From NCBI RefSeq assembly GCF_002723935.1, contig NZ_BEWM01000004.1:124001-188000 (forward strand): 64,000 nucleotides of DNA. Direction: 5' to 3'. A program made the position numbers and the translations under genes. Shown one piece after another: positions 1,513 to 17,336 of this stretch. The stretch comes from Gluconobacter cerinus. Lineage in GTDB: Bacteria > Pseudomonadota > Alphaproteobacteria > Acetobacterales > Acetobacteraceae. Every line of letters starts with the position of its first letter. The stretch's first letter is position 1. A model generated the notes under the pieces. It was not told the DNA's origin. It did no database searches and saw only the letters and a program-made list of their open reading frames with translations.

Positions 1513-3693
1513 ATGGCTGGCGGAACAACGTATAATAGTACTCGGCAGTACTCACTTGCTAATGGTGGGACAATATCAGGCTCTACATCGACAGATATTT
1601 TTGGAGATGTGACCGTTAATGAATCCTATTTTCTAATAAATAATACGCTTTCTGGTTCTACTGCGGCGCAGTATGGAGCTATTATAGCTCAAACTGGCGA
1701 CGTCGGAACAAATCTCTCTGCGACGTCCGCGGGCGCTCTGCTTGCTTCCGGCGGGACCATTACTGGCGCAACGGTTGGAAACTCTGCCGCAGTTCTGGCC
1801 TTTAACGGTGGAACCGTTACGAATTATAATGCAGCAGCAGGTGGCGCAGTTTTTGTTGGCGACCAGTCGCTCAACACGTCTGCTTCTGCGATCCTGACGT
1901 CCAAGGGACTGACAAATCTAAGTGGGCCTGGCATTGTCTCGGCTGGCACCTTGCATGCTGGGGCACAGGAAATCATCACGAGTGGTGGTACTGACCGGGG
2001 ATCCCTGATCCAGGGCAGTCAGTATGTTTCTGCCGGTGGTCTCACGATCAGCAACACTGTTAACAGTGGTGGCGTTCAGAACCTGTATAGTGGTGCTATC
2101 ACCAGTGGGACGATTGTTGCCTCTGGTGGTACGACGGTTGCGAGCGGTGGCGCCACCATCAGTGCGACAAACATTTCTGGTGGTGTTGTTCAGCTGAATG
2201 CTGCTGCTATTCTCCGCGGTGCGGTCGTAAGCGCCGGGGGGAAGCTTACTGTCTCAAGTGGCGCAACTGCATCCAGCGTGACTGTATCGTCTGGCGGTAC
2301 GGAGAGCGTGCTGTCTGGTGGTGTCATTTCTGGCGGCACAGTGCTCAGCGGCGGCAAGGAATCTGTTGCTTCCGGTGCAACGTCTTACAACGTCACAGTC
2401 TCGTCCGGCGGCTCGCTCACAGTTGTTGCTGGCGCTGTCCTGTCTGGAACACAGGTTGCTCAGGGTGCAGTTATCGATGTCGATACGCTGACCTACGCTT
2501 CGGGCGGCACTGTTAAGCTTGACGGTAACACCCTTACGATTTCCGAAGGTGGTTCCACCTGGCAGACAACGTTTGGTGGCACCTTCAAGAGCACCGACTA
2601 TTTTGTGATTGGCCGTGACACCGATGGCAGCACGATTGCAACGTTCGTTTGCTTCTGTGCCGGGACGCTGATCCTCACAGAAGACGGCGAAAAGCGCGTC
2701 GAGGACCTTCGGATTGGTGACCGCGCCATCACATATGTGGCTGGTCGTGAAGTCATCGAGCCTATCACTTGGGTTGGTCATCGCACGGCGCAGGTTCGTA
2801 CGGATCTGCCGGTTGATCAGGCTGGATATCCTGTCCGTATCCTCAAGGACGCTATCTCTCTTGGCGTGCCTCATCAGGATCTCGTGGTTACTCCCGAGCA
2901 TTGCCTGTATTTCGAAGGGCGCTTCGTCCCGGCACGTATGCTCGTTAACGGTCGTAGCGTTTTCTACGATCTGACAATGACGAACTACGAGTACTTCCAC
3001 GTCGAGACGGAAAATCATTCCATTCTGTGGTCCAACGGTGCCCTCAGCGAAAGCTATCTGGACACTGGAAACCGTCGTGAATTTGGCCAGCAGGGTGGTG
3101 TTGTCCGTCTTGTCAGTGGTCCGGTTCGTGAGTGGAGTGTTGATGCAGCGGCACCGCTGGCAGTGACGCGTGATCTGGTTGAGCCAATCTACCGTGCACT
3201 TGAAGAACGCGCTGTAGAAATGTCCATTCCAGACCAGCGGAAGCCCGTTGTTCTAACCGAAGATGCCAACCTGCATCTTGTGACGCCTGCTGGTCATCGG
3301 ATTAACGCGGCACGTCGTGCAGAAAACGGCGACTTCGTTTTCATGCTTCCAGCTGGCGTTGACGAAGTCCGTATCATGTCCCGTGCATCTCGTCCGGCCG
3401 ATGTCTTTGGTCCGGTGGTTGATGACCGTCGTTACCTTGGCGTTCTGGTCGGGGGTATCAGCCTCTGGGCAGGTAACGGTCAGAAGAGCCTGACTGCACA
3501 CATCACGGAAGACGAACTGTCCGGCTGGAACAACCGCGAAGAGGGCGGCGTTCGGTGGACGAATGGCAACGCTGTTCTGAAGCTTCCTGCGCGTCAGGAT
3601 CTTTCGATTGCTGTTCTGACAATCGAAGTGAAGAACGCAGGGCCATACCTGCTTGAAGATGAGACTGACAACGTAGCTGTCATCGCATCCTGA
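1513..3693 (+). CDS. Hint-domain protein with autotransporter strand-loop-strand repeats
   Basis: A 726-residue protein in two halves. Residues about 1-350 are Gly/Ser/Thr/Ala/Val-rich repeats of the type SSGG-x(n)-V-x-SGGT, the strand-loop-strand pattern of AIDA-I-like passengers. From residue 377 comes a Hint (hedgehog/intein) domain: the probable catalytic Cys382 in the CFCAGT motif, then VEDLRIGD, then the block B motif TPEH (Thr460, His463), then a His-rich segment near NHSILWSNG. About 200 residues follow the Hint core. There is no recognisable signal peptide and no beta-barrel, so it is not a classical autotransporter. ATG 1513 was chosen over the in-frame GTG at 1495 because GGAGG lies eight bases upstream. 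Hint families are known to self-cleave N-terminal to the Cys. The downstream O-heptosyltransferases suggest that the repeats are glycosylated (inference). The gene is monocistronic, with its own terminator. Confidence 0.85.
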   Translation: MAGGTTYNSTRQYSLANGGTISGSTSTDIFGDVTVNESYFLINNTLSGSTAAQYGAIIAQTGDVGTNLSATSAGALLASGGTITGATVGNSAAVLAFNGGTVTNYNAAAGGAVFVGDQSLNTSASAILTSKGLTNLSGPGIVSAGTLHAGAQEIITSGGTDRGSLIQGSQYVSAGGLTISNTVNSGGVQNLYSGAITSGTIVASGGTTVASGGATISATNISGGVVQLNAAAILRGAVVSAGGKLTVSSGATASSVTVSSGGTESVLSGGVISGGTVLSGGKESVASGATSYNVTVSSGGSLTVVAGAVLSGTQVAQGAVIDVDTLTYASGGTVKLDGNTLTISEGGSTWQTTFGGTFKSTDYFVIGRDTDGSTIATFVCFCAGTLILTEDGEKRVEDLRIGDRAITYVAGREVIEPITWVGHRTAQVRTDLPVDQAGYPVRILKDAISLGVPHQDLVVTPEHCLYFEGRFVPARMLVNGRSVFYDLTMTNYEYFHVETENHSILWSNGALSESYLDTGNRREFGQQGGVVRLVSGPVREWSVDAAAPLAVTRDLVEPIYRALEERAVEMSIPDQRKPVVLTEDANLHLVTPAGHRINAARRAENGDFVFMLPAGVDEVRIMSRASRPADVFGPVVDDRRYLGVLVGGISLWAGNGQKSLTAHITEDELSGWNNREEGGVRWTNGNAVLKLPARQDLSIAVLTIEVKNAGPYLLEDETDNVAVIAS

Positions 3694-3720
3694 AAAACTG
3701 CTTAGAAAGTTGAACGAAAT

Positions 3721-3765
3721 GGAAGTAACGTGCGTTTCAGGAACGCACGTTACTTCCTTCTTTCT
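3721..3765 (+). terminator. Strong Rho-independent terminator after the Hint gene
   Basis: A perfect 16-base inverted repeat (arms 3721-3736 and 3742-3757) with a five-base loop, followed by a T-rich tract. It separates the Hint gene from the operon that starts at 3811. Confidence 0.88.
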
Positions 3766-3810
3766 ATTTGCAGGATTTTCATAGAGTTCCGAGGAATAGG
3801 TTGACGCAAT

Positions 3811-5262
3811 ATGTTTGAACGTCTGGCCCTGAAATATGCAGCCGGACATCCGGCCTCAATTGCGATGAGCTGGTTTGAGGGAGAGGCAAGCTTCGATCAG
3901 CTTTCCCACGATGTCAGCCGAGTTGCCAACGCACTTTTTCAACTTCGGGATCTTCTCCCGTCAGTTGTGGCCATTCGATGCGTACATCCATACAGACACT
4001 GGGTTTTCATTCTTGCTTTGGCCCAGCTCGGAATACCCTCGGCTTCGTTGCCGGGATATGTGGATGCGAACTTCCACCGCTCTGTAAAAATCCTGTCTCC
4101 GGACATCATATTGCTTGATGAGCCTGTCGACGGGCTCGAGCAACAGGTTCTGGTACTGAACGACGCCTGGTTTGAGCATGTCTGCCAGACCGGGGCAGAA
4201 TGTGCTGAAACCATCACAGTTCAGCCTGACGACGTCGTGCGTTTCTCTGTAGCCGGCGGGACAAGCCAGGATGCGCGTCGTATCGCCCTGACATCGCGAT
4301 ACGTAGAAACAGCGGTTTGTCATCTGCTGTTTCAGGATGTGTTGTCCCACACCCATCGTCCTGAAAACCTGCGCGTCTTACCGACGCTGGGGGCGGAGAC
4401 TTCTAGCGGCTTTCTCATCATTCTCTCTGCCCTGGTAGCCGGGACGCGTTTGCAAATGATGACGGGTTCCGAGTTAGGGCTCGTCTTCAGCCAGGATATT
4501 CCGACAGTTGCCGTTGTTTCTCCTCGGCATGTGGAGGGCATACTTTCTCAGCTACCACCCGGCATGAGTCCCTTGGACAATCTGTTTCTGACGGTTGCGG
4601 GAGGGAAGTTACCAAAAGCGCTTTGTGCCTCCATCCGGCAAAAGCTCACCCCGAATGTTCAGGTTGTTTACGGCGCTGATGAATGTGGAGTGATTACCAT
4701 TGTCTCGACGGACGCTCAGTCCAGCGATGATGAGGTCGGACAGCCACTTCCCTGGGTTGGACTGGAGATCGTGGACGAAAATCATCAGCGTGTTTCTGCC
4801 GGTGAGGTGGGGCGCATTCGTGTCAGTGGCACCGGGGTTATCGGCGGATACGATCTGGACCCGGTTGCGACTGCAGCGCAATTCCGGGACGGATGGTTCT
4901 ACCCTGGTGATACCGGTTTTGTGGACGCGAATGGAACGTTGCACCTGCGGGGCCGCGCCGACGATCTGATCAGTTTTGGCGGGGATAAGTTCGATCTGGA
5001 GAGGTTGGACGCGCGGCTTCTGGCATGTGCTGGTGTCAAGGATGGTGCGATGTTTGTTGTCCCTGACGATCAGGGACTTCCAACGCCATGGGTCGCTCTC
5101 GTGACAGAAGATGATTTTAACCTGGAACTGCTTTCAAAATGGATGAGGCAGGATTTTCCCAATCTGCCGGATGCGGCGGCTGTGTGGATTGATGCTCTTC
5201 CCCGGACCGAGAACGGCCAGCCTGACAGAGTGGCTTTACAGAAGGCAGTCAAACCCTCCTGA
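3811..5262 (+). CDS. Degenerate acyl-adenylate (ANL superfamily) protein
   Basis: A 483-residue protein with the fold of AMP-dependent synthetases/ligases. Seen: YGADE, matching the family YGxTE motif; GWFYPGDTG, matching the A7 motif; and GRADDLISFGG, matching the A8 hinge. Two key motifs are degraded. The Ser/Thr/Gly-rich phosphate loop reads SVAGGTSQ (146-153), and the invariant C-terminal catalytic Lys of the SGK/NGK motif is replaced by Gln470 in ENGQPDR. Full-length ANL enzymes are usually above 500 residues, so it is also short. It is the first gene of the PKS operon, 59 bases before the PKS. It may catalyse only the thioester-forming half-reaction, act as a condensation or transfer partner, or be inactive. 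The substrate cannot be read from the sequence. Confidence 0.75.
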   Translation: MFERLALKYAAGHPASIAMSWFEGEASFDQLSHDVSRVANALFQLRDLLPSVVAIRCVHPYRHWVFILALAQLGIPSASLPGYVDANFHRSVKILSPDIILLDEPVDGLEQQVLVLNDAWFEHVCQTGAECAETITVQPDDVVRFSVAGGTSQDARRIALTSRYVETAVCHLLFQDVLSHTHRPENLRVLPTLGAETSSGFLIILSALVAGTRLQMMTGSELGLVFSQDIPTVAVVSPRHVEGILSQLPPGMSPLDNLFLTVAGGKLPKALCASIRQKLTPNVQVVYGADECGVITIVSTDAQSSDDEVGQPLPWVGLEIVDENHQRVSAGEVGRIRVSGTGVIGGYDLDPVATAAQFRDGWFYPGDTGFVDANGTLHLRGRADDLISFGGDKFDLERLDARLLACAGVKDGAMFVVPDDQGLPTPWVALVTEDDFNLELLSKWMRQDFPNLPDAAAVWIDALPRTENGQPDRVALQKAVKPS

Positions 5263-5321
5263 ACAATAATATTTCATATGCTCCGTTCCATACAGATTAG
5301 AAGACAAAAAGCGGGTTTTAA

Positions 5322-8300
5322 ATGATCGATTACGGACATGAAGTGGCAGTCGTCGGGATCGGATGTCGCCTTCCCGGGGGAATAGAGACAACCGAGGCTC
5401 TCTGGCGCTTTTTGTGTAAACAAGGCGACGCCACATCCGATGTTCCGGCCGATCGGTGGGGTATCAAGCGTTTTTACGATCCTGAATACGAAACCCCCAA
5501 CAAGACCTATATGCGGCGTGGCTCATTCATTGATCAGAAGATCGATGAAATGGACCCGTTGTTTTTCGGTATTTCGCCGCGTGAAGCCACCCTCATGGAT
5601 CCTCAGCAGCGGCTTCTTTTGGAAGTCGTTTGGGAGGCGATGGAAAATGCCGGAATTCTTCCTGCCACCTTGGCAGGAACCCGCACCGGTGTCTTCATCG
5701 GAACGTTTTCTCTGGACTGGCTCGTTGCTTGCGGTTCCCCTCTTAACCGGCCCCTGATCACGGATCACTTTGCCGCAACTGCTGCGTCAGCCACGATGCT
5801 CGCCGCGCGTGTTTCGCATAATCTTGGTCTTCAAGGACCATGCATGTCTATCGATACGGCATGCTCATCATCATTGGTTGCCATTCATCAGGCCCGTACT
5901 AGCCTGCTGAATGGGGAAAGTGATGTCGTCGTGGCTGGTGGCGTCAACATCATGGTTGCTCCACCAGCTTCTATCACCATGTCCAAAGGGCACTTTCTCG
6001 CGGCGGATGGGCGCTGCAAAAGCTTCTCTGCTGATGCGGACGGCTATGGGCGCGGGGAGGGCGCGGGCATCGTCTTGCTCAAGCGACTTGCGGATGCAAA
6101 ACGGGATGGAGACGTTATTCACGGTGTGGTCGCGGGAACGGGCGTCAATCAGGACGGTCGTACCCTGTCATTAACGATGCCCAGTGAAGATGCTCAACGT
6201 GCGCTTATCGAAGAGGTAGCCCAAAAAGCGCACGTCGATCTCGCCGCGATTGGATATGTAGAAGCACATGGTACCGGTACACCGGTTGGCGACCCGATCG
6301 AAGCGCGTGCGTTGGGAACGGCAATTGGTCACAAGCGTGCCTCAGACAGCCCCCTGATTGTCGGGTCCATCAAAGCTAATCTGGGACATTTGGAAGCCGC
6401 GGCCGGTGTTACTGGGCTTATCAAGGCGCTCCTTTGCCTGAAACATGGCGCTATCCCGCCGCAGGCGAACCTCACACAGGTTAACCCTGCAATCCCGTTC
6501 GCGGATCTTCATTTGAAGGTCGCTCAAGACACTCTCACCCCGCTGAAGGCTGAGGCCGGAACGGTGTATGCAGGTGTGAATTCGTTTGGGTATGGCGGAA
6601 CAAACGCAGTTGCGCTTCTCAGGGCACCTACGGAAGCTGACCAGCCTCAGAAAAGGCTGGCAGAGATCGTCAGGATGCCATCTGGTCGTTTCCTGCTGCC
6701 TGTGAATGCACTGGTAGACGCATCTTTGAAAACACTTGCGCGATCGTATGCAAGTCTTCTGGCATCTTCTGCCGCTCCGTCCGTAGCCAATGTCTGTTTT
6801 TCTGCAGCAACCTACCGGACGCGTCTGCCAATGCAGGCCGTGGTGTCTGGCCGGGATCGGGAAGAGCTGATTGCAGGCTTGAAAGCGCTCTCTGAGGGGC
6901 AATCTTCACCAGCAGTCACGGTGGGGCGGCGTCGAAATGGTGAGATGCAGCACCCTGTCTTTGTGTTTTCAGGAATGGGCTCCCAATGGAAGGGCATGGG
7001 GCAGCATATTCTCAGGCATGCCCCTGAACCTGTTTCCAGCACTATTCAGCAGATCGATAGCCTGTTTTCTGCGCTTGCAGGATGGTCCATTCTGGATGAA
7101 ATCCTGAAGCCTGCGGAACATTCACGCATTGATGAGACGGTTGTTGCGCAGCCGGCCATCTTTATGGTTCAGGTTGTTCTTGCAGAGCTCTTCCGTTTTC
7201 ATGGTGTGACACCCGTGGCGATCGTTGGCCATAGCGTGGGTGAGGTTGCTGCGAGTTACATCGCTGGCGCCCTGTCTCTTGAAGACGCTGTAACTGTTAT
7301 CTTTCATCGGAGCCAGCAACAGGCGCGTTTGGCCGGGCGCGGTGCGATGCTCGCGATTGGGATGTCTGGCAGGCAGGCTGCCGAAAAATTACTTCCAGGC
7401 TATGAAGACCGGGTGTCAGTCGCCGCTCTTAATAGCGCGAAGTCTGCGACGCTTGCGGGCGAAGAGGCCGCACTTAAAGAGCTTGCTGCGCGATGTGATC
7501 AGGATGGCACGTTCAATCGCCTTCTCAGAGTTGAAGTCCCCTATCACAGCATCCTGATGGAAGAGATCCGAGATGATCTTCTAAACCCGCTTGCCGCGCT
7601 CGCTCCGATAAACCCGAACATTCCGCTCTATTCAACAGTAACGGGTACGCGCTGGGCGGACGATGCTCTTCATGATGCGGAATACTGGTACGGAAATGCA
7701 CGGCAGCCCGTCCTGTTCCATGATGCTATTCAGAACTTAATGGGTGATGGGCACCGGGTTTTCCTTGAGATTGGTGCACACCCGGTGCTTGGCGGTTTGA
7801 TAAGGGAAACAGCGCAGCAGGTTGACGGGGACGTTACCGTCATTGCCAGCCTGAGCCGCAAAGACGCGGAAGATACAGCCATAGCGCGCAGTATCGCCAA
7901 ACTCTACATGGCCGCCGTGCCGTTGGACTGGTCTCTGCTGACGGGAGGGCATCGGACGGACCTTCCTCATTATGCCTGGTCTCGAAGCCGGTTCTGGTCT
8001 GAGACTGAGGTTTCGCGCAAGGATCGGCTGGACGGAACCGTTCATCCGGTTCTCGGTATTCCAGTCAGCGCATCCCGGCCGGGTTGGCTTGCGGACATCA
8101 ATCGCAACTATATGCCGTGGTTGCCCGATCATAAAGTGGACGGGATCTGCCTGTTTCCGGCTGCGGGCTATATTGAAGGCGGTCTGGCTTTACATCGTCA
8201 GATCGAACGCTCTGATGCAGCAATTCTGGAAGATCTGGAAATTGGTCAGGCTCTCCTTCTGGATAGCCTCACGCCACCTGTTGTCGAGTGGGCATTTGAT

Positions 8301-11300
8301 GAAGAAACGCGCGTTCTGACGGTATCATCGTCTCATGGCGACGATGGTGAAGAAGAGTGGATTCAGCACGCTAAGCTCCGTGTTTTGGCAAGTGTGCCAT
8401 GGGCAGCAGACCCGGTGGCTCCTGAGAGCTTACAAGCCGATCTCAAACACGAAATACTGCCAGAAACGTTCTACGCGAGACTTGCAGAGCATGGCTTCTC
8501 GTACGGCCCGTCTTTTCAGACAATCAAAGAGCTGAAGGCCGGTGATGGTATTGCCTTCGCGCGTCTGGAGTTGGCAGATGCTGAGAGCATCGCAGAGTAT
8601 TTTCTTCATCCAGCATTGCTTGATGGCGCTTTCCAGGCATTGATCGGTGCCGGATACAGCGCTGCGGAAGAAAGAGTTTTCGTTCCGACAGGCGCGCGGC
8701 AGGTCGTCTATCGTGGAGGACACCATAAAGTCCTTCTGGCTCATGCCGCTCTAACACGTCGTTCCGAAACCGGCATTGAGGGCGATATCCGGCTCTTTAC
8801 AGAAGCGGGTGAACCTGTTGCCGAAATCCTCGGCTTCAAGGCGCGGGCTATTCGAAAGTTGGTCGCTGCAGGTATGGGGGCGGAGAATGTCCGTCGTTTC
8901 TATCGCCCGGCGTGGGTTCAGACGGAGTTGCTTCCGCATTTTGCGGAGCCTCTAACAGCACTGGTTTTGGGGCGTGATGGACCTCTGCTGGAGCAGTTCA
9001 GTCAGGTTTCTGCTGGCCAGGGGATTATGGTTGATACCCTGAAGATCGATGATGTGGATCAGACGGCCCTGGCAGAGGCGCTGGCTCAAACGAATGATGC
9101 AATCCTTTATCTGTGCTCATTCACTGAAGACGCAACCGGAAAACAGGGTATTGCAGAGATCTTGCGTCTTGTCAGAGCGATCAGGGTTTCGGAAGACGGT
9201 GAAGCTGCGCCGAAATGCCTGATCGTCACGCGCGGGGCGGTTTCTGCGGAAGCGATTCAAAGTGATGATCTGGATACAGGGCAGGCCGCTATCCGGGGTT
9301 TTGCAAGAGGGGTCGCATCAGAGCGGCCGGATCTTGCGCTTCGCATCGTCGATATCGGTCGTGTGGTTGACGAAGCCACGTTGCAGCAGCTCTGTGCGGA
9401 AATTGTTCAGCAGGATACAGAGGACGATATCGTTCTGCGCCCTGGCCTGCGGGCTGTCGGGCGACTGACTCCGTCGGAAACGAAGCCAGAACCTGTACCG
9501 ACGCTTTATCATCCCAACGAAACGGCGGATGGACGGCTCGTCGGGGTCCGTCTTGTGAGTGCATCGAATGGTTCGCTGGATCGGCTACATCATGAGCGGT
9601 TTGTCGCAGGTCCTCTGCAACCAGGTCAGGTCCTGTTTCGAACGCTCGCTGCAGCACTGAACTTCAAGGATATCCTGAAAGCGACCGGCCTTATTCCGCA
9701 AAGTGTTGTGGATGATACGTTCCATGGCGAAAGCCTTGGCATGGAAGCTTCTGCTGAGGTGATTGCTGTCGGCGAGGGTGTAACGGATTTTGCGCCGGGC
9801 GAACGATATCTCGTCTCCTGGCCAGGGTGTTTTGCGTCTCATTTCACTGCTGACGCAGAAAGCATTTTTGCGCTTCCCATTGAAGGGCTTGGGTCGCCAC
9901 TTGAAGCCGCCACGCTGCCTGTGGCTTTCATCACGGCGTATTATGGTTTGTGCCGTCTCGCGCATCTTGAAAAGGGTGAAACAGTCCTGATCCATTCCGG
10001 GACTGGGGGCGTTGGTCTGGCGGCAATCCAGTTGGCGAAACGGGTGGGAGCCCGAATTTTTGCAACTGCGGGAAGCCCTGAGAAACGGCAGTATCTTAGA
10101 GAACTCGGATGCGAGGGCGTTTGGGATTCCCGTTCTCTGGAATTTGCAGAAGGGATACGAGCCGTCACGCAGGGGCGCGGTGTTGATGTCGTTCTGAACT
10201 CCTTACCCGGAGAGGGGCAGACGCACAGTTTGTCGATCGTGGCTCCCTATGGCCGATTTGTCGAAATCGGGAAAAAGGACATCATTGAAAAACGCGGATT
10301 GCCCCTCGCTCCGTTCAATGAAAACCTGTCTTTTTTCTCACTCGACCTTGATCGGATGATGCTGGAGCGGCCTGCGCTGATGCGGTCACTCCTGTCAGAT
10401 GTGGCTGCGCTATCCAAAAGCGGAGACGTGCAACCTTTGCCGTTGGAAAGCTTTCCTGCGCGCGATGCCGCCGGAGCGTTCCGCCTGCTGGCGTCTACCA
10501 AGCATATGGGCAAGGTTGTTATTGATTACTCCGATCTGGACGACCTCAAAGCCTCGCCCTTGCCGAGGCCACAGCCACAGGTGTCGGATGGCAAAACATA
10601 TCTTATTACAGGCGGCCTGAGTGGCTTTGGCTGGGCAACCGCTGAATGGTTGATTGAACAGGGCGCTCGTAACTTGGTTCTGCTGGGTCGCAGAACACCG
10701 GAGGAAACCGGGGTTAGCGAGCAATTGGCAATCCGGCGTGCCGCAGGCGTGCACATTCATACCATCCAGGTCGATGTCTCGCACGAAGAGGCTATGCAGG
10801 ATGTCTTCGAGGAAATTGCCTTTACGAGCAATCTCCCACCAATTCGTGGCATTTTTCATTGTGCTGGAATTTTGGACGACGCGCTTGTCCAAAATCTGGA
10901 CGAAGCGCGGATTGGCCGGGTTCTTGAGGCAAAAGCCCAGGGCGCAATCATCCTTGACCGTTTGGTTCAAGGCATGGACTTGGATTATTTCGTGCTGTTT
11001 TCGTCTGTCACTACGGTGCTGGGGAACGTCGGCCAGAGCGCTTATATCGCCGCCAATGCCGTTCTGGGTGCGGTAGCGGCCGATCGCTGGAAAGATGGAG
11101 AGGCAGCTCTCGCAGTTGATTGGGGAGCGATTGCAGATGTGGGCATGCTAAGCCGGAACGAGACTGCGGCTCGGGCTTTAGAGGCCGCCGGTCTTAAGGG
11201 AATGCCGGCTCATGATGCGTTGGACCACTTGCCGGAAATGCTTGCGCTAGAGTTGCCGGAAGTTGCCTGTGTTGAGATTGACTGGAAGAAATGGGCGCAG

Positions 11301-11675
11301 ATTGTTCCCGGGGCAAACGCGCTGGCCCGCTTTTCACTTGTTCGCCTGGCGGATGCCAGTAATGGAGCGACCAGTGAGCGGCTCGCAACGCTCTCGGCCT
11401 TGCCGGAAGATGAGCGTCTTCCTTATGTTGTAGAGCAGGTGAAGGTCCTAATTGCCCAGACATTGCATCTGGAGCCCACAAGCATTGATGACCGTGCACG
11501 CTTGTCCGAACTTGGGATCGACTCTTTGGCCGGCGTTGAACTTCAAACGGCTCTGCGGGTAGAGTTCGGTGTCGAAGTCTCCATCCTTGTTCTCGCACGT
11601 GATGAAAGTATCCGAAAAATGTCCCAGTTTCTTTTGAACAGGGTCAAGATCGGCCAGACGGCGCAACTCCCATGA
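5322..11675 (+). CDS. Single-module type I reducing polyketide synthase (KS-AT-DH-ER-KR-ACP)
   Basis: A 2117-residue multidomain enzyme expected to extend an acyl starter and fully reduce it. Domains: ketosynthase about 5-435 with active Cys181 (DTACSSS) and the HGTGT and NLGH motifs; acyltransferase about 540-850 with Ser638 in GHSVGE; dehydratase about 910-1190 with His937 (H-x3-G-x4-P) and Asp1101; enoylreductase about 1415-1735 with the NADPH loop SGTGGVG at 1559; ketoreductase about 1755-1950 with TGGLSGFG and Tyr1908; acyl carrier domain about 2020-2105 with phosphopantetheine Ser2068 in LGIDSL. There is no thioesterase and no loading carrier domain. The acyltransferase specificity position reads VPYH, neither the malonyl HAFH nor the methylmalonyl YASH form, so the extender is not assigned. 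It overlaps the next gene by four bases (ATGA). The product is probably a reduced fatty-acid-like chain, made once or iteratively (inference). Confidence 0.93.
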   Translation: MIDYGHEVAVVGIGCRLPGGIETTEALWRFLCKQGDATSDVPADRWGIKRFYDPEYETPNKTYMRRGSFIDQKIDEMDPLFFGISPREATLMDPQQRLLLEVVWEAMENAGILPATLAGTRTGVFIGTFSLDWLVACGSPLNRPLITDHFAATAASATMLAARVSHNLGLQGPCMSIDTACSSSLVAIHQARTSLLNGESDVVVAGGVNIMVAPPASITMSKGHFLAADGRCKSFSADADGYGRGEGAGIVLLKRLADAKRDGDVIHGVVAGTGVNQDGRTLSLTMPSEDAQRALIEEVAQKAHVDLAAIGYVEAHGTGTPVGDPIEARALGTAIGHKRASDSPLIVGSIKANLGHLEAAAGVTGLIKALLCLKHGAIPPQANLTQVNPAIPFADLHLKVAQDTLTPLKAEAGTVYAGVNSFGYGGTNAVALLRAPTEADQPQKRLAEIVRMPSGRFLLPVNALVDASLKTLARSYASLLASSAAPSVANVCFSAATYRTRLPMQAVVSGRDREELIAGLKALSEGQSSPAVTVGRRRNGEMQHPVFVFSGMGSQWKGMGQHILRHAPEPVSSTIQQIDSLFSALAGWSILDEILKPAEHSRIDETVVAQPAIFMVQVVLAELFRFHGVTPVAIVGHSVGEVAASYIAGALSLEDAVTVIFHRSQQQARLAGRGAMLAIGMSGRQAAEKLLPGYEDRVSVAALNSAKSATLAGEEAALKELAARCDQDGTFNRLLRVEVPYHSILMEEIRDDLLNPLAALAPINPNIPLYSTVTGTRWADDALHDAEYWYGNARQPVLFHDAIQNLMGDGHRVFLEIGAHPVLGGLIRETAQQVDGDVTVIASLSRKDAEDTAIARSIAKLYMAAVPLDWSLLTGGHRTDLPHYAWSRSRFWSETEVSRKDRLDGTVHPVLGIPVSASRPGWLADINRNYMPWLPDHKVDGICLFPAAGYIEGGLALHRQIERSDAAILEDLEIGQALLLDSLTPPVVEWAFDEETRVLTVSSSHGDDGEEEWIQHAKLRVLASVPWAADPVAPESLQADLKHEILPETFYARLAEHGFSYGPSFQTIKELKAGDGIAFARLELADAESIAEYFLHPALLDGAFQALIGAGYSAAEERVFVPTGARQVVYRGGHHKVLLAHAALTRRSETGIEGDIRLFTEAGEPVAEILGFKARAIRKLVAAGMGAENVRRFYRPAWVQTELLPHFAEPLTALVLGRDGPLLEQFSQVSAGQGIMVDTLKIDDVDQTALAEALAQTNDAILYLCSFTEDATGKQGIAEILRLVRAIRVSEDGEAAPKCLIVTRGAVSAEAIQSDDLDTGQAAIRGFARGVASERPDLALRIVDIGRVVDEATLQQLCAEIVQQDTEDDIVLRPGLRAVGRLTPSETKPEPVPTLYHPNETADGRLVGVRLVSASNGSLDRLHHERFVAGPLQPGQVLFRTLAAALNFKDILKATGLIPQSVVDDTFHGESLGMEASAEVIAVGEGVTDFAPGERYLVSWPGCFASHFTADAESIFALPIEGLGSPLEAATLPVAFITAYYGLCRLAHLEKGETVLIHSGTGGVGLAAIQLAKRVGARIFATAGSPEKRQYLRELGCEGVWDSRSLEFAEGIRAVTQGRGVDVVLNSLPGEGQTHSLSIVAPYGRFVEIGKKDIIEKRGLPLAPFNENLSFFSLDLDRMMLERPALMRSLLSDVAALSKSGDVQPLPLESFPARDAAGAFRLLASTKHMGKVVIDYSDLDDLKASPLPRPQPQVSDGKTYLITGGLSGFGWATAEWLIEQGARNLVLLGRRTPEETGVSEQLAIRRAAGVHIHTIQVDVSHEEAMQDVFEEIAFTSNLPPIRGIFHCAGILDDALVQNLDEARIGRVLEAKAQGAIILDRLVQGMDLDYFVLFSSVTTVLGNVGQSAYIAANAVLGAVAADRWKDGEAALAVDWGAIADVGMLSRNETAARALEAAGLKGMPAHDALDHLPEMLALELPEVACVEIDWKKWAQIVPGANALARFSLVRLADASNGATSERLATLSALPEDERLPYVVEQVKVLIAQTLHLEPTSIDDRARLSELGIDSLAGVELQTALRVEFGVEVSILVLARDESIRKMSQFLLNRVKIGQTAQLP

Positions 11676-13483
11676 CACAGTCCTTTGCCACGGTTCTTGC
11701 CGCTGATGGACAGGAAATACTGGATTGGCAGCGGAGCACGATCGTTGATGCGCTGTTCTTTCATGCCGCCAGAACGCCGGACCTCAAAGTCTACACTTTG
11801 CTCGGAGACGGCGAAAATGAAACGGATACTGTAACGGCGTCTGAGCTTGCTGCGCAGGCTACGGCGTTGGCTGTATGGCTGAAGCGAATGCTTGAGCCCG
11901 GTGCTCGGGTGCTTTTGCTGTATGAAAGCAGCCTTGATTATATTCGGGGGCTTCTCGGGTGTCTGTGCGCGGGGCTGGTACCGGTTTCAGGCGTGTATCC
12001 CAAAGCGTTTGGCGCGCGGGACCGGTTTGTCGCGCTGAGAGATGACGTTGAGGCTGCGGCGGTTATCGGCAATCGCAGCATCCTCACCGAATTTCAGAAA
12101 GTTTGCCCCGACAAGGTCGATAGTGCGCGGTTTCTATGGATCCCGACGGACAAGATCCGCTCGTCTGCAAAGCACGAGAGTGTGGCACATCCTTTGCCAA
12201 CGGATGTTGCGCTTATTCAGTACACGTCGGGCTCCACACGGACACCACGGGGTGTTCTGCTCACGCATCGCAATATCGCGCATAATCTGTTCCGTCAGGC
12301 AGAGGCTTTTGGGTATCGGCAGGGCGATTGCGGCGTTAACTGGCTTCCTCTCTCTCATGACATGGGATTGATTGGGGGCGCCCTCATGACACTGGCAACT
12401 GGAGGGCGTTGTATTCTGTTACCGCCAGAAGCTATTGCTGAAAAACCGATACGGTGGTTGCGGGCTATTAGTCGTTACAGGGCGACGCTCTCCGGCGGCC
12501 CGAATTTCGCATATGGAATGTGCGTGCGGTCTATCGCCCCTGAAGACGTTGCATCACTGGATCTGTCTTGCTGGGAAGTGGCGTTTAACGGGGCAGAATA
12601 TATCCGCGAAGAGACGATGCAGTCGTTCACAGAACGTTTTGCGTCATCCGGGTTTGATGAACGTGCGTTTTTTGCATGTTATGGCCTTGCAGAAGCAACC
12701 TTGCTGGTCACGGCCAGTGAGCGTGGGCAAGGCGTGTCGTTTCGGGAGTTTTCCCGTGACGGTCTTGCGCATGGTCATGCACTCCCGCCGCGCGATATCC
12801 TTGATAGGCGCCTTTTAGCAGGCTGCGGCGAACCACCATCTGACATTATCGTACGAATTGCCAATGGGGACACTGAAACAGCGCTTCCAGATGGAGACGT
12901 CGGAGAAATTCGTATTCATAGTCCCGGCGTCGCAACCGGGTACGTGAACCGCCCTGTAGAAAACAGTCGGGTTTTCGAAGGGCATGTTGGGGGCGAAGAA
13001 GGGACGTTTTTACGGACAGGGGACCGTGGTTTTCTGCTGGATGGAACGCTGTATGTCACTGGCCGTCAGGATAATCGGATCAAACTCGGCGACAGTGTTC
13101 TTGATCCTGAAGATATTATCGCTTGTCTGGGAGCGTTCGAAGCCGATATTCGGCTGTTCTCAACGGCAGTCTTTGATGAGACCATTGGAGACAAAACGTC
13201 GCTTGTTCTTGTGACTGAACTCCCATCGGGATCGGATGGTGATCTGACGCAACTGGGTAAAGCTATCGGCGAGACGATCTGCACACATTTTCCGACGCGG
13301 CGTTGCCGTGTCGTTTTCCTGCGCGCCAGTGCGATCCTGAAAACGCCAAGCGGAAAAATCAGAGTGGCGGAAACCAAGAAGGAGCTTCTTCAGGGCAATA
13401 TTGCGATCCTTGGTGAATATACTCATAGTCCAGCAGGATCTGGCCAGGTGCGCATTCTAAAAATTGCAGAGGGGAAAATGTGA
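11672..13483 (+). CDS. Fatty acyl-AMP ligase (FAAL)
   Basis: A 603-residue adenylate-forming enzyme that activates fatty acids as acyl-AMP for handover to carrier proteins or PKS modules. Features typical of FAALs are visible: the phosphate loop YTSGSTRTPRG, LPLSHDMGLIG, SGGPNFAYGMCV, FNGAEYIREETM, the YG(L)AE motif in CYGLAEATLL, and the C-terminal catalytic Lys in TPSGKIR. Unlike the degenerate paralogue at 3811, this copy keeps all catalytic residues. It is coupled by four-base overlaps to the PKS upstream and the glycosyltransferase downstream. The context suggests it supplies the PKS starter, although the PKS has no separate loading carrier domain. Chain length cannot be read from the sequence. 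Confidence 0.9.
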   Translation: MTQSFATVLAADGQEILDWQRSTIVDALFFHAARTPDLKVYTLLGDGENETDTVTASELAAQATALAVWLKRMLEPGARVLLLYESSLDYIRGLLGCLCAGLVPVSGVYPKAFGARDRFVALRDDVEAAAVIGNRSILTEFQKVCPDKVDSARFLWIPTDKIRSSAKHESVAHPLPTDVALIQYTSGSTRTPRGVLLTHRNIAHNLFRQAEAFGYRQGDCGVNWLPLSHDMGLIGGALMTLATGGRCILLPPEAIAEKPIRWLRAISRYRATLSGGPNFAYGMCVRSIAPEDVASLDLSCWEVAFNGAEYIREETMQSFTERFASSGFDERAFFACYGLAEATLLVTASERGQGVSFREFSRDGLAHGHALPPRDILDRRLLAGCGEPPSDIIVRIANGDTETALPDGDVGEIRIHSPGVATGYVNRPVENSRVFEGHVGGEEGTFLRTGDRGFLLDGTLYVTGRQDNRIKLGDSVLDPEDIIACLGAFEADIRLFSTAVFDETIGDKTSLVLVTELPSGSDGDLTQLGKAIGETICTHFPTRRCRVVFLRASAILKTPSGKIRVAETKKELLQGNIAILGEYTHSPAGSGQVRILKIAEGKM

Positions 13484-14670
13484 GCATTAGCAGCCCCTCA
13501 GCGCCTCCAGTTCAACCCGCGTCTATTGTGCCGACGCAGGACGGGCCGGGAGGTATTCGCTTCGATTTTAACGATGGATGCCGCGTTCTTTTGCCTGCTG
13601 GTAATTGGCATGTTGTCCTGAAAGATCTGGATACGCACACGATTTTATTTTCTGAGGATGTGTCTCAGGGGATCGTACAGAGCATAAAAAGATATTACCT
13701 GCGCTATCAGATCGAGATTACAAAAGACGGCGAACCCTTCTTTACGTATGAAATGGACCTGAAGGATCAACCCATTCTCGTCCGAATGCGGGAAGGCGGC
13801 ATCGGTGATCATCTGGCTTGGTTCGGGCAAGTGGCAGAGTTTGCCCGCAAACACGAATGTCGCCTGACATGTATGGTGCGCCCGGACATCGCCAGTCTGC
13901 TCATTCCGGTGTACCCTTATATTCGGCTTGTTTCGACTGAAGAAGAGGCAGGAAAAGACTATTATGCCTCTTATAAAGTTCTGATTTTTTACAATGACGT
14001 TGCCCGCAACCATAGCCCGGTGGATTATCGCGAAGCAGGCCTGGAAAATAATGCGGCTCTTATTCTGGGCCTTTCGAGGACATCACGTCCACCCGATGTT
14101 GACGTCATGGAGGGAGGGAGGCCTCTTGCGGAACGATATGTCTGCATTGCGACCCAGGCGACATCCCAGAACAAATACTGGAACAATCCGTTCGGTTGGG
14201 TGGAGACGATCCGCTTCCTAAAAAATCATGGCTATAGAGTCATCTGTATCGACAGGAGCCGGGTCAACGGCGTCGGAACCATCTGGAATAATATCCCGTA
14301 TGGGGCGGAAGATTTCACAGGCGCGCTGCCTCTTGCTGAACGTGCGAGATGGTTGCGGCATGCAGAGTTTTTTATTGGGCTTTCCAGCGGTCTAAGCTGG
14401 CTTGCTTGGGCAGTCGGTACGCCTATTGTACTGATCAGCGGCTTCACGCGGCCTGACAATGAGTTTGAAACACCCTACCGCGTGATTAACTGGAATGCCT
14501 GCAATGGGTGTTCCAATGATATCCGGTGTCAGCTTGATCCAGCCGATTATCTTTGGTGTCCGCGGCAGAGCGGCACTGACAAACAGTTCGAATGTACCCG
14601 ACTGATTTCTTCGCAGCAGGTAATCGACACAATCATGAAAATTCCCGATTTTGAGGGAGTGTCAGAATGA
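13480..14670 (+). CDS. Autotransporter strand-loop-strand O-heptosyltransferase, copy 1
   Basis: A 396-residue protein of the TibC/Aah bacterial autotransporter heptosyltransferase family, which transfers ADP-heptose to Ser in strand-loop-strand repeats in the cytoplasm. Seen: the N-terminal barrel region (GIRFDFNDG, LKDLDT), GGIGDHLAW with Asp110 at the position of the family's catalytic Asp, then SSGLSWLAW and a C-terminal cysteine set Cys341, Cys344, Cys360, Cys372. In TibC a similar set binds iron. An extra Cys350 is present here only. The GTG start at 13480 overlaps the FAAL stop by four bases. Its likely substrate is the Hint/strand-loop-strand protein at 1513-3693 (inference from family role and proximity). 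Confidence 0.88.
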   Translation: MSISSPSAPPVQPASIVPTQDGPGGIRFDFNDGCRVLLPAGNWHVVLKDLDTHTILFSEDVSQGIVQSIKRYYLRYQIEITKDGEPFFTYEMDLKDQPILVRMREGGIGDHLAWFGQVAEFARKHECRLTCMVRPDIASLLIPVYPYIRLVSTEEEAGKDYYASYKVLIFYNDVARNHSPVDYREAGLENNAALILGLSRTSRPPDVDVMEGGRPLAERYVCIATQATSQNKYWNNPFGWVETIRFLKNHGYRVICIDRSRVNGVGTIWNNIPYGAEDFTGALPLAERARWLRHAEFFIGLSSGLSWLAWAVGTPIVLISGFTRPDNEFETPYRVINWNACNGCSNDIRCQLDPADYLWCPRQSGTDKQFECTRLISSQQVIDTIMKIPDFEGVSE

Positions 14671-16013
14671 CGACTGCAAAAGCGAATGACATCTTCCAGT
14701 CGATCATGCTTGCTGGACATTCCAGTAAGCCTGTTGCGACGCCGCCTGCCGTAGATCCGTCTAATGAGACTGATAGTGTCTCGAAATTAGATGCGGCTGC
14801 CGGTTCTGCGTCATCAATCGAGACCGCGACATTTCCGAGCCCTTCAAGCCTAGCAACGCAGGAAGGTTTTGCGGGTATTCGTTATGATTTTAACCAAGGG
14901 GTCCGTGTCACGGTTCCCAAAGGGATATGGCGCGTTCGGCTTACTGACCTTGATACGGACGCGGTTATTTTTGACGGTGAGGGGAGTAATGCGACCTTTC
15001 AAAGCCGAAAGAAGCATTACTTGAACGCAAGGATCGAAGTCTTCCAGGCGGGGATGCTCGTTTTCTCTCACGACTATAACGCGCAGGGTAAAAAAATAGC
15101 CATTCTTATGGCTGGCAATACGATCGGCGATACGGCTGGTTGGGTGCCATATGCTGTGCGTTTTGCACGAGACCATGCATGCGAACTCACAGTGATGGTA
15201 TCGGAGCAGATGAAAGAACTGCTTTCCGCGTCATACCCAGATATCAGATTTGTTGAAAAGCATGAGTTCAGCGCGTTAAAAGACGAGTTTTACGCCACGT
15301 ATTATATCGGTTTGTTCTTTGGGGATGAAGACAACACCTGGCAACCTGCCGACTTTCGGATTGTTGGATTGCACAGAACAGCAGGCTATATTCTCGGAGT
15401 TTCTCCCGAGGAAGAGCCTCTGCATCTGGATATTTCTGACGAAAGACCGATTGAAGAGCCTTATGTTGTCATCGCCAGTCAGGCCAGTGCCCAGTGCAAA
15501 TACTGGAATAACCCGACGGGTTGGTACGATGTCGTGGAGTTTCTCAAGAGATCAGGGTATCGCGTTATCTGCATCGACCGAGAAATAAAATATGGGCAGG
15601 GCCTTCATTGGAACCAGATCCCGCATAACGCGGAAGATGAGACTGGAGCCCGGCCCCTCCGCGAACGTCTTCAATGGCTAAAGCACGCAGAGTTTTTTGT
15701 GGGCCTGTCGAGCGGTCTCTCCTGGCTCGCTTGGGCGGCTGACACACCCGTTGTCATGATTTCCGGATTTACACATCCGATAAACGAATTTCAGACACCG
15801 TACCGGGTTTTTAATACCAACACTTGCAACAGTTGCTGGCACGATATTCGGCATCCGTTCATCCATAGTGACTTTCTTTTCTGCCCCCGTCATGCGGGCA
15901 CCAGTCGTCAGTTTGAATGTACGCGGAATATCACATCTGGTCAGGTCATTCGGACTATCAAAGCAGTGATGCTTGAGCACCCGCTAGAGAGCGCGCATCG
16001 TCCTTCAGAGTGA
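14667..16013 (+). CDS. Autotransporter strand-loop-strand O-heptosyltransferase, copy 2
   Basis: A 448-residue paralogue of the preceding gene, joined to it by an ATGA overlap. It carries an N-terminal extension of about 65 residues, rich in Ser/Thr/Ala/Pro, that copy 1 lacks. The catalytic-region motif NTIGDTAGW contains Asp155, matching Asp110 of copy 1. SSGLSWLAW is conserved. The four metal-binding cysteines are Cys387, Cys390, Cys406 and Cys418, with the same spacing (0, +3, +19, +31) as copy 1; His replaces the extra cysteine of copy 1. Two tandem copies could form a hetero-oligomer or have different acceptor or sugar preferences. It is the last gene of the operon; a terminator follows. 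Confidence 0.88.
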   Translation: MTTAKANDIFQSIMLAGHSSKPVATPPAVDPSNETDSVSKLDAAAGSASSIETATFPSPSSLATQEGFAGIRYDFNQGVRVTVPKGIWRVRLTDLDTDAVIFDGEGSNATFQSRKKHYLNARIEVFQAGMLVFSHDYNAQGKKIAILMAGNTIGDTAGWVPYAVRFARDHACELTVMVSEQMKELLSASYPDIRFVEKHEFSALKDEFYATYYIGLFFGDEDNTWQPADFRIVGLHRTAGYILGVSPEEEPLHLDISDERPIEEPYVVIASQASAQCKYWNNPTGWYDVVEFLKRSGYRVICIDREIKYGQGLHWNQIPHNAEDETGARPLRERLQWLKHAEFFVGLSSGLSWLAWAADTPVVMISGFTHPINEFQTPYRVFNTNTCNSCWHDIRHPFIHSDFLFCPRHAGTSRQFECTRNITSGQVIRTIKAVMLEHPLESAHRPSE

Positions 16014-16029
16014 ATTATAAAACGCTTTT

Positions 16030-16062
16030 CCTGAGCAAGGGGAAGCTCAGGTAGTCTTTTTT
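16030..16062 (+). terminator. Rho-independent terminator of the PKS/heptosyltransferase operon
   Basis: The arms CCTGAGC (16030-16036) and GCTCAGG (16045-16051) pair perfectly around an eight-base loop. A T-rich tract follows at 16055-16062. Confidence 0.8.
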
Positions 16063-16157: not shown

Positions 16158-17336
16158 TTGCTTTATTCATTGACCAAAGAGCGCAGCAGTCGGCGTCAGT
16201 TTCTGATCGGCGGTGCGGCGCTATCCTGTAGCGCTCTGGTGGGATGTGCCTCTTCCAGTGAGGGAAGGTTCTCCAAAGTAGACGCCCTGGCGCGACAGGC
16301 CGTGAAAGACAAAGAGACTCCCGGCGTTGTTCTTGCTGTTGGTCATAATGGCGAGGTTACACATCGTTATGTGTATGGAAGCCGGGCTCTGGTTCCTACT
16401 CGTGAGCCCATGACCTGGGACACGCGGTTCGATATGGCGTCGCTGACCAAGCCAACAATGACGGCTCTGGCTGTCATGCAGTTGGTGGAACACGGAAAAA
16501 TCAATATTGACGATCAGGTCATGCGTTATCTTCCAGAGTTCGCAGCCAACAAAAAATCGGCTGTCACCCTGCGGCTTCTGCTGACCCATTATTCGGGCCT
16601 TCCCCCGGATGTGCCGCTTGATACTCCATGGAGCGGAAAAGCAGAGGCTGTCCGTCTTGCCATGACATCGCCGCTTGCCAATCCGCCGGGGACAAAGTTT
16701 GTCTATAGCGATATCAATTACATTACGCTGGGTCTGATCGTGGAAAAGGTTACAGGTCAGCCCCTGAACCAGTATGTCGCTGACAATATTCTAACGCCTT
16801 TGGGAATGTCGCACTCCGGTTACCTGCCGGACGCTGTCTTACAGCCTGATATTGCGCCTACGCAGTATGATGACCAACATCACATGTTGCGCGGCGTCGT
16901 GCATGACCCGACCGCCCGCCGCATGGGGGGCGTTGCAGGGCATGCGGGGCTTTTCTCGAATGCGCAGGACATGTGCCTGTATGCACAGGCATTACTGGAT
17001 TGTCTCGCTGGTCGTCCCAGCACGTTTCCGCTTCAAAGAAGTACATTGGAGTTGATGACAACCCCACAACAGCCCGCTGGGAAAACTGACCTGCGAGGAC
17101 TGGGATGGGATATCGCCACGCACTATTCCTCCCCAAGGGGGGATCTGTTTTCGGCGAGATCATTCGGCCATACCGGCTTTACGGGGACGTCGCTCTGGAT
17201 TGACCCTGAGAGTGACAGTTATGTGCTCATTCTGACCAATCGGGTTCATCCGTCCGGGGGTCACAGTGTCGTGAAACTCCGGCATGATATTGCCACAGAC
17301 GCTGCTCGGGCACTGAGCGTAGCAGCACACGCCTGA
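16158..17336 (+). CDS. Serine hydrolase, beta-lactamase/class C penicillin-binding fold, lipoprotein
   Basis: A 392-residue exported hydrolase. The N-terminus has a twin-arginine-like SRRQFL, a hydrophobic stretch and a lipobox ending at Cys30 (ALVGC), so it is probably a lipoprotein exported by Tat or Sec. The catalytic signature S-x-x-K is Ser95-Leu-Thr-Lys98. A YSDINY motif supplies the second catalytic element, and GHTGFTG near the C-terminus matches the family's third motif region. The start is a TTG at 16158, five bases after AGGAGG; no better-placed ATG fits the frame. The substrate is not identifiable: the family includes esterases, D-aminopeptidases and beta-lactamase-like proteins. 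It is convergent with the S10 peptidase gene. Confidence 0.85.
   Translation: MLYSLTKERSSRRQFLIGGAALSCSALVGCASSSEGRFSKVDALARQAVKDKETPGVVLAVGHNGEVTHRYVYGSRALVPTREPMTWDTRFDMASLTKPTMTALAVMQLVEHGKINIDDQVMRYLPEFAANKKSAVTLRLLLTHYSGLPPDVPLDTPWSGKAEAVRLAMTSPLANPPGTKFVYSDINYITLGLIVEKVTGQPLNQYVADNILTPLGMSHSGYLPDAVLQPDIAPTQYDDQHHMLRGVVHDPTARRMGGVAGHAGLFSNAQDMCLYAQALLDCLAGRPSTFPLQRSTLELMTTPQQPAGKTDLRGLGWDIATHYSSPRGDLFSARSFGHTGFTGTSLWIDPESDSYVLILTNRVHPSGGHSVVKLRHDIATDAARALSVAAHA

Follow-up and report, generated by a model that had tools for sequence, protein, structure and literature searches.

Parts of several described systems recur in a run of six genes that we analysed in 64,000 nucleotides of DNA from Gluconobacter cerinus (contig NZ_BEWM01000004.1, positions 124,001 to 188,000; below, the window means this whole stretch, numbered from its first letter, and its assembly is 3.58 Mb). 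In mycobacteria, FadD and Pks proteins form lipid pairings such as FadD23–Pks2 and FadD28–Mas. The heptosyltransferases TibC and AAH are paired with the autotransporters TibA and AIDA-I (bacterial autotransporter heptosyltransferases, BAHT). The passages of PMC4358343 on TibC residues describe a catalytic Asp110, a donor-site Lys230 and iron-finger cysteines, and give position 300 as Ser in AAH and Pro in TibC. Background on Hint domains is provided by the relevant part of PMC2362128. Finally, the cluster section of Guzman and Vilcinskas (2021; PMC8776678) describes clusters with a beta-group type-1 polyketide synthase (PKS), acyl ligases and an O-heptosyltransferase, reports no thioesterase, names Hint proteins for the Asaia clusters and reads the whole as a specialised-metabolite cluster.

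We propose that the present locus is a decoration pathway for a surface protein of beta-solenoid fold: the protein would receive heptose and an acyl chain built by the PKS, a degenerate protein of the ANL superfamily (AMPl) would hand the chain over, and a Hint domain would make a separate cut. This reading as a whole has, in our judgement, about an even chance of being right. Its parts differ in strength. Heptose on the TibA-like passenger is well supported by homology; that the product of the PKS and its ligase ends on a protein is plausible. We infer that the acyl chain passes from the PKS onto the surface protein, as we do every step beyond PKS loading, and the role of AMPl in acyl transfer is a guess. 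The new observation is that a sister clade of AMPl stands beside PKS-free surface beta-solenoid proteins and has its ATP loop and lysine intact, whereas these are altered or lost in the PKS-linked copies.

All six open reading frames (ORFs) lie on the forward strand and were confirmed in the window sequence. They encode, in order, the Hint protein, AMPl, the PKS, a fatty acyl-AMP ligase (FAAL) and heptosyltransferases A and B; order, domains and overlaps are as the initial annotation described them. Overlaps of four bases join PKS and FAAL (11672–11675), FAAL and transferase A (13480–13483), and the two transferases (14667–14670). The Hint gene begins at ATG 1513 with a GGAGG motif in front; the mechanical ORF begins at GTG 1495. 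A terminator-like hairpin of 17 pairs (3721–3757, +; z −5.1 on folding) lies in the gap behind it. With this hairpin between it and the enzyme genes, the Hint gene probably has its own transcript, so that its earlier placing beside the operon holds for position and needs this correction. Of the 18 intergenic stretches folded, most showed by eye a hairpin at the equivalent site, with shuffles for the window locus only.

AMPl (3811–5262, +; profiles, alignment, tree and ratio of nonsynonymous to synonymous substitution, dN/dS) does not qualify as an active ANL enzyme: its ATP loop is altered and its A10 lysine is absent (for AMPl and FAAL alike, we use what we take to be the accepted names and roles of these motifs). 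The degeneracy noticed earlier is real and is common to the whole clade. The A10 lysine was found in 60 of 61 rows from outside the block (58 of 59 distinct rows) and in none of the 36 block rows, of which one was unreadable (lost in 35 of 35 readable rows). The ATP-loop pattern was present in 55 of the 61 and in 0 of the 36. The nearest match of AMPl among the named records listed was that of Gluconobacter sp. Gdi (87%). Because motifs A5, A7 and A8 are largely kept and dN/dS against this match is 0.05 (range 0.05–0.09 for five of six block genes tested), AMPl is taken to be a working protein. A decaying pseudogene was rejected on the same dN/dS value.

The descent of AMPl was followed in trees limited to rows of 400–700 residues. 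A quick tree left out L074 and L075, whose contigs are also those of L116 and L117, together with six rows that were fragments or not AMPl; a careful tree of 83 rows additionally left out the FAAL row and five long branches. In the careful tree, block AMPl and five other proteins formed a clade (96/93) and the five a clade of their own (100/97). These five come from Rhizomicrobium (L122), Sphingomonas (L126 and L128) and Acidisphaera (L116 and L117). An autotransporter gene with a PF03797 barrel lies upstream of the AMPl relative at L122 (90 nt), L126 (23 nt) and L128 (26 nt). At both Acidisphaera loci a strand-loop-strand/Hint gene lies directly downstream of the relative, and at L117 a divergent TIGR04414-type gene stands beside it. 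Two further relatives, from Oceanicola (L163) and an Acetobacteraceae metagenome-assembled genome (L145), have autotransporters 81 and 29 nt upstream, respectively; the quick tree put L163 just outside the joint clade and left L145 unplaced. The ATP loop and the lysine are intact in all seven proteins. No PKS was seen in the stretches around the autotransporter-paired relatives, and the best match to the block FAAL was weak in both Acidisphaera genomes (E 1.6e-9 and 6.6e-13). Because the kin of AMPl adjoin Hint-less autotransporters as well as Hint proteins, the factor common to AMPl and its kin is the beta-solenoid passenger, not Hint. The Rhizomicrobium locus also carries a TPR-sulfotransferase gene behind its stand-alone AMP-binding gene.

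The autotransporter pairs were recognised by Pfam on chosen large upstream ORFs, a choice that was not blind. Since it covered only 7 of the 45 loci that belong neither to the PKS block nor to Acidisphaera, the count of 5 pairs in 45 is a lower bound. We rejected the idea that AMP-binding proteins are generally paired with autotransporters: none of 31 distant relatives in 20 genomes lay within 3 kb of a PF03797 barrel, the nearest being 3.1 kb away with other genes between (G273), and barrels occurred in only 7 of the 20 genomes. When 385 genomes from across the class were searched with the Rhizomicrobium AMPl (E 1e-50), three matched, all of them block-bearing; the surface-linked AMPl clade is therefore rare in that draw. 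Other neighbourhoods varied. The Ramlibacter relative (L118) adjoins an Mfd helicase gene, upstream of the one at L152 lies a DUF4214 protein rather than an autotransporter, and beside the one at L136 we saw by eye no Ser/Thr/Gly-rich ORF, a TonB-receptor-like ORF being nearby.

The predicted target in the window is a protein of 726 residues (1513–3693, +), delimited by profiles, an AlphaFold model and Foldseek. Its passenger of 379 residues (1513–2649, +) contains 0 Cys, 53 Ser, 53 Thr, 68 Gly and 5 Lys and matches the strand-loop-strand repeats of TIGR04415 (59 bits); its best sequence match in the PDB was TibA (6.5e-18), followed by AIDA-I-family/Ag43 proteins. The full-length model had a mean pLDDT (predicted local distance difference test) of 70.9 and a pTM (predicted template modelling score) of 0.48. 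Ten-residue means were 83–96 over residues 41–300 except 111–140, and the Hint and C-terminal part was weak. The top Foldseek match of this model was heptosylated TibA (4q1q; E 4.7e-10, rmsd 1.4, TM 0.87 of target). No signal peptide was seen when the translation was judged by eye, and no PF03797 barrel was matched in the protein, which has Hint_2 and another C-terminal domain instead.

The Hint_2 domain (PF13403, 122.6 bits; 2647–3066, +) was defined by Pfam, an alignment of 20 proteins and a separate model. Cys380, His463 (of T-P-E-H), His496 and His502 are invariant in that alignment. Modelled separately, the Hint and C-terminal part reached a pLDDT of 87.8 and matched BIL domains, inteins and Hedgehog 1at0 in Foldseek. 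The conserved C-terminal domain behind Hint (about 200 residues; 3067–3690, +; alignment, model and Foldseek) had no convincing fold match in the PDB by Foldseek; it also occurs on other Hint proteins of the window genome. That genome (G000) has 17 Hint_2 matches, and the Hint and C-terminal module is joined there to varied N-terminal parts.

Transferases A (13480–14670, +) and B (14667–16013, +) are TibC-type O-heptosyltransferases by Pfam, NCBIfam and residue alignment. They scored 583 and 594 bits with TIGR04414 (curated cut-off 200), and transferase B matched TibC (4rap) at E 2e-119. The residues D110, K230, R286 and W305 of TibC and the four iron-finger cysteines are kept in both enzymes, as they are in all 25 further transferases that were sampled. 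ADP-heptose synthesis is served by HldE kinase, and a match to this kinase of at least 312 bits was found in 13 of 15 genomes tested, above the curated cut-off of 345 bits in 9. The exceptions were G116, with a split match, and G139, a genome 72% complete, with weak matches only; weak matches to the kinase family were also found in 14 of 14 control genomes. The window genome has three copies above the cut-off.

Target and enzyme occur together. Among 160 Acetobacteraceae genomes, strand-loop-strand repeats (E <= 1e-3) were found in 47 and TIGR04414 over its cut-off in 45: both in 43, one alone in 4 and 2, and neither in 111 (Fisher p 8e-32, uncorrected for kinship between genomes). In the window genome, five of six transferase loci adjoin a strand-loop-strand or Hint protein, and the sixth adjoins uvrA and trhO. 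These results, together with the TibA-like passenger and the conserved key residues, bear out the earlier proposal of a pathway for a heptosylated surface protein. An orphan TIGR04414 gene lies just ahead of trhO in the window genome (L080:6739–9226, C2), and at L068 and L070 the whole block lies just ahead of a UPF0176/trhO-like gene; there are hints that the trhO side may be the ancestral place of the block. Elsewhere in the window genome a stop-interrupted heptosyltransferase gene stands between two Hint proteins (L082:10177–11339, C8).

The PKS (5322–11675, +) is a type I enzyme with the domains KS-AT-DH-ER-KR-ACP by Pfam, NCBIfam and alignment; no thioesterase domain was listed by Pfam or NCBIfam. 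Of 41 PKS rows in the alignment (36 distinct), every one retains the KS Cys and carrier Ser motifs, and 39 retain the AT motif. The section of PMC8776678 on Asaia considers its PKS likely split; in our loci five Asaia records have it as a single ORF of about 2115 codons, and in two it is split or short. The FAAL (11672–13483, +) was assigned by Pfam and NCBIfam: its top profile matches were mostly fatty acyl-AMP ligase families, ahead of CoA-ligase profiles and all under the full-length cut-offs. By eye, its ATP loop and A10 lysine are present.

The co-occurrence check proposed in the initial annotation came out positive: the neighbourhood is conserved. In the sample of 160 genomes the block is present in 13 (the window genome and 12 others), with a Hint gene beside AMPl in 10. 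At least 33 named loci with PKS were found among the best 80 matches of a longer list, five of them identical to loci of the 160-genome set; they are recorded under seven genus names (Gluconobacter, Acetobacter, Asaia, Saccharibacter, Bombella, Commensalibacter and Parasaccharibacter) or as Acetobacteraceae only. The Hint gene is directly upstream in 18 of the 31 named loci with at least 1500 bases upstream. Given the number of Hint matches in each of the 13 block genomes, chance alone would place a Hint within 5 kb of AMPl in about 0.4 of them, and 10 were observed; the resulting p of 2e-14 is too strong because the block genomes are related. Chance adjacency was rejected on the conservation across loci. 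G061 and G136 each have one Hint_2 match and a Hint protein at the block, and the three block genomes without an adjacent Hint gene (G158, G118 and G032) have Hint proteins with the same C-terminal domain elsewhere. The block itself varies: the PKS runs off the stretch at L064–L066, where FAAL and transferases are in opposite orientation; L069 and L072 have a single transferase; the first transferase of L067 is broken; and L076 and L077 have a PKS of only about 33% identity. Some loci have a GT4-like glycosyltransferase gene added to the block: L064 and L068 (Pfam), L065 and L070 (by eye) and L066 (place and length).

The pathway may be pictured as follows. The two TibC-type enzymes would, to judge from homology, put heptose on Ser and Thr of the passenger. 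To judge from its domains, the FAAL would activate a fatty acid and load the reducing PKS, on whose carrier protein a long acyl chain would be built. AMPl might then take the finished chain from the carrier and help to deliver it to the passenger or to the heptoses on it. We suggest this hand-over because the PKS-free kin pair with surface beta-solenoids and the activation residues were lost in the lineage with a FAAL and a PKS; the acyl group would at first have been self-activated and later supplied by the PKS carrier. In a separate maturation step, the Hint domain would cut the passenger from the C-terminal module, either releasing it or joining it to some nucleophile. Two observations make this step look independent of the acyl pathway: the Hint module occurs much more widely than the block, and several proteins paired with AMPl kin lack Hint. 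A broader proposal, possible and put forward tentatively, is that the AMPl clade consists of ANL-fold enzymes acting on secreted beta-solenoids: an ATP-dependent, autotransporter-paired ligase would have become a FAAL/PKS-fed transferase in acetic acid bacteria, yielding Hint-matured adhesins with heptose and a polyketide-type acyl group, and thereby a novel way of lipidating proteins in bacteria.

Several observations weigh against a heptose-and-acyl pathway. The block contains no known acyl-to-protein transferase, and we know of no ANL protein that transfers acyl groups to protein. By a looser ATP-loop pattern, found in 54 of the 61 non-block rows, 2 of the 36 block copies of AMPl still resemble the loop. 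Of the 45 transferase genomes, 32 lack the PKS block; heptosylation can therefore do without the acyl pathway. The Bombella-type genome G032 has the block and transferases, and no strand-loop-strand repeat at E 1e-3; at L093 and L114 no transferase was seen in the stretch examined. Thirteen of the 31 named loci have no adjacent Hint gene, namely that of A. thailandicus and 12 from the Saccharibacter/Bombella group, of which two are in records labelled Acetobacteraceae only. This last point also suits a different explanation, in which the product of FAAL, PKS and AMPl is a free lipid or polyketide (an antifungal, for instance) and the transferases and the Hint protein lie next to them and serve another function. 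Equally well suited to it is the protease- and heat-stable antifungal of Bombella apis, for which the relevant part of PMC8262860 offers as candidate a PKS cluster, very probably the present one. That link is a prediction there, however, and is questioned in the corresponding part of PMC9147383. Moreover, the protein-modifying transferases are tied to the operon by their four-base overlaps and kept together with it across genera, the PKS-free kin of AMPl adjoin surface proteins, and no resistance or export gene was found among the six genes by family (Pfam and NCBIfam). On balance we consider a free metabolite unlikely.

The initial annotation had gone further and suggested that the lipid could be attached at the Hint cleavage site, as the nucleophile on the Hint thioester, so that the heptosylated passenger would be anchored by its new C-terminus as in Hedgehog. 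The invariant first Cys and TxxH His in 20 proteins, the fold match to 1at0 (E 8.5e-4, though BIL domains matched better), the low-confidence linker (pLDDT 34–37) ahead of the Cys in the full-length model and the adjacency of a lipid-type pathway in many loci are consistent with this. But Hint_2 occurs in 127 of the 160 genomes, among them, on comparison by eye, every one of the 45 transferase genomes, against 13 with the block; other Hint proteins of the window genome that share the C-terminal domain are encoded at a distance from the PKS; many loci have no adjacent Hint gene; and AMPl kin adjoin autotransporters without Hint. The PKS product, an acyl thioester, is no nucleophile by itself, and Pfam listed only PF13403 and PF16168 at E 1e-3, not PF01079, which we take to be the Hedgehog-type Hint/sterol-recognition profile. 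The heptose part of the proposal is well supported and the Hedgehog-like attachment site is disfavoured, to the point that we hold it quite improbable. Improbable, too, is a non-covalent arrangement in which the PKS product, an outer-membrane lipid or glycolipid, would hold or receive the protein and AMPl would serve for binding or as a scaffold. The score of the PKS with the mycobacterial Pks2 profile (1186 bits, far under the cut-off of 2400), the glycosyltransferase and capsule genes of other Acetobacteraceae PKS groups (in the cluster section of PMC8776678) and the GT4-like gene in some relatives point that way; the pairing of AMPl kin with autotransporters, in stretches where no PKS was seen, is left unexplained by it.

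Behind the last transferase gene, folding gave a terminator-like stem-loop (16030–16051, +), followed on the same strand by a gene of beta-lactamase fold (PBP4B-like, 16158–17336).

If our decoration pathway is right, a PKS would be working for a protein, and a supposed metabolite or antifungal cluster of bee symbionts and other acetic acid bacteria would be a finishing line for surface proteins. An ANL-fold family beside autotransporters would gain a function, and acylation of beta-solenoid adhesins would become directly testable in harmless bacteria. In the titles and abstract openings of the literature searched, we found neither a protein-modification proposal for the cluster nor the pairing of AMP-binding proteins with autotransporters.

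The locus shares with the BAHT pairs the enzyme family, the catalytic and iron-finger residues, and the fold and sequence of the passenger. It differs from them in a target that carries Hint and a C-terminal module and lacks a barrel (by profile) and a signal peptide (by eye), in the addition of PKS, FAAL and AMPl, and in its tandem transferases, which have Ser at position 300 as in AAH and not the Pro of TibC. With the Hedgehog Hog domain the window Hint shares the fold, the first Cys and TxxH; it differs in having no match to the Hedgehog-type profile and in belonging to a domain widespread without the PKS block, and lipid transfer is established for Hog only. As in the mycobacterial FadD–Pks systems, a FAAL stands beside a single-module reducing PKS without thioesterase; unlike them, the block has protein glycosyltransferases alongside, falls far short of the family cut-offs and has no counterpart of what we take to be their Pap-type acyltransferase. 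The clusters of Guzman and Vilcinskas (PMC8776678) are the ones studied here, with acyl ligases on either side of the PKS, an O-heptosyltransferase and Hint proteins. Their cluster section does not mention AMPl decay or its surface-protein kin, and the adjacency of Hint described there for Asaia extends here to Gluconobacter, Acetobacter and Commensalibacter.

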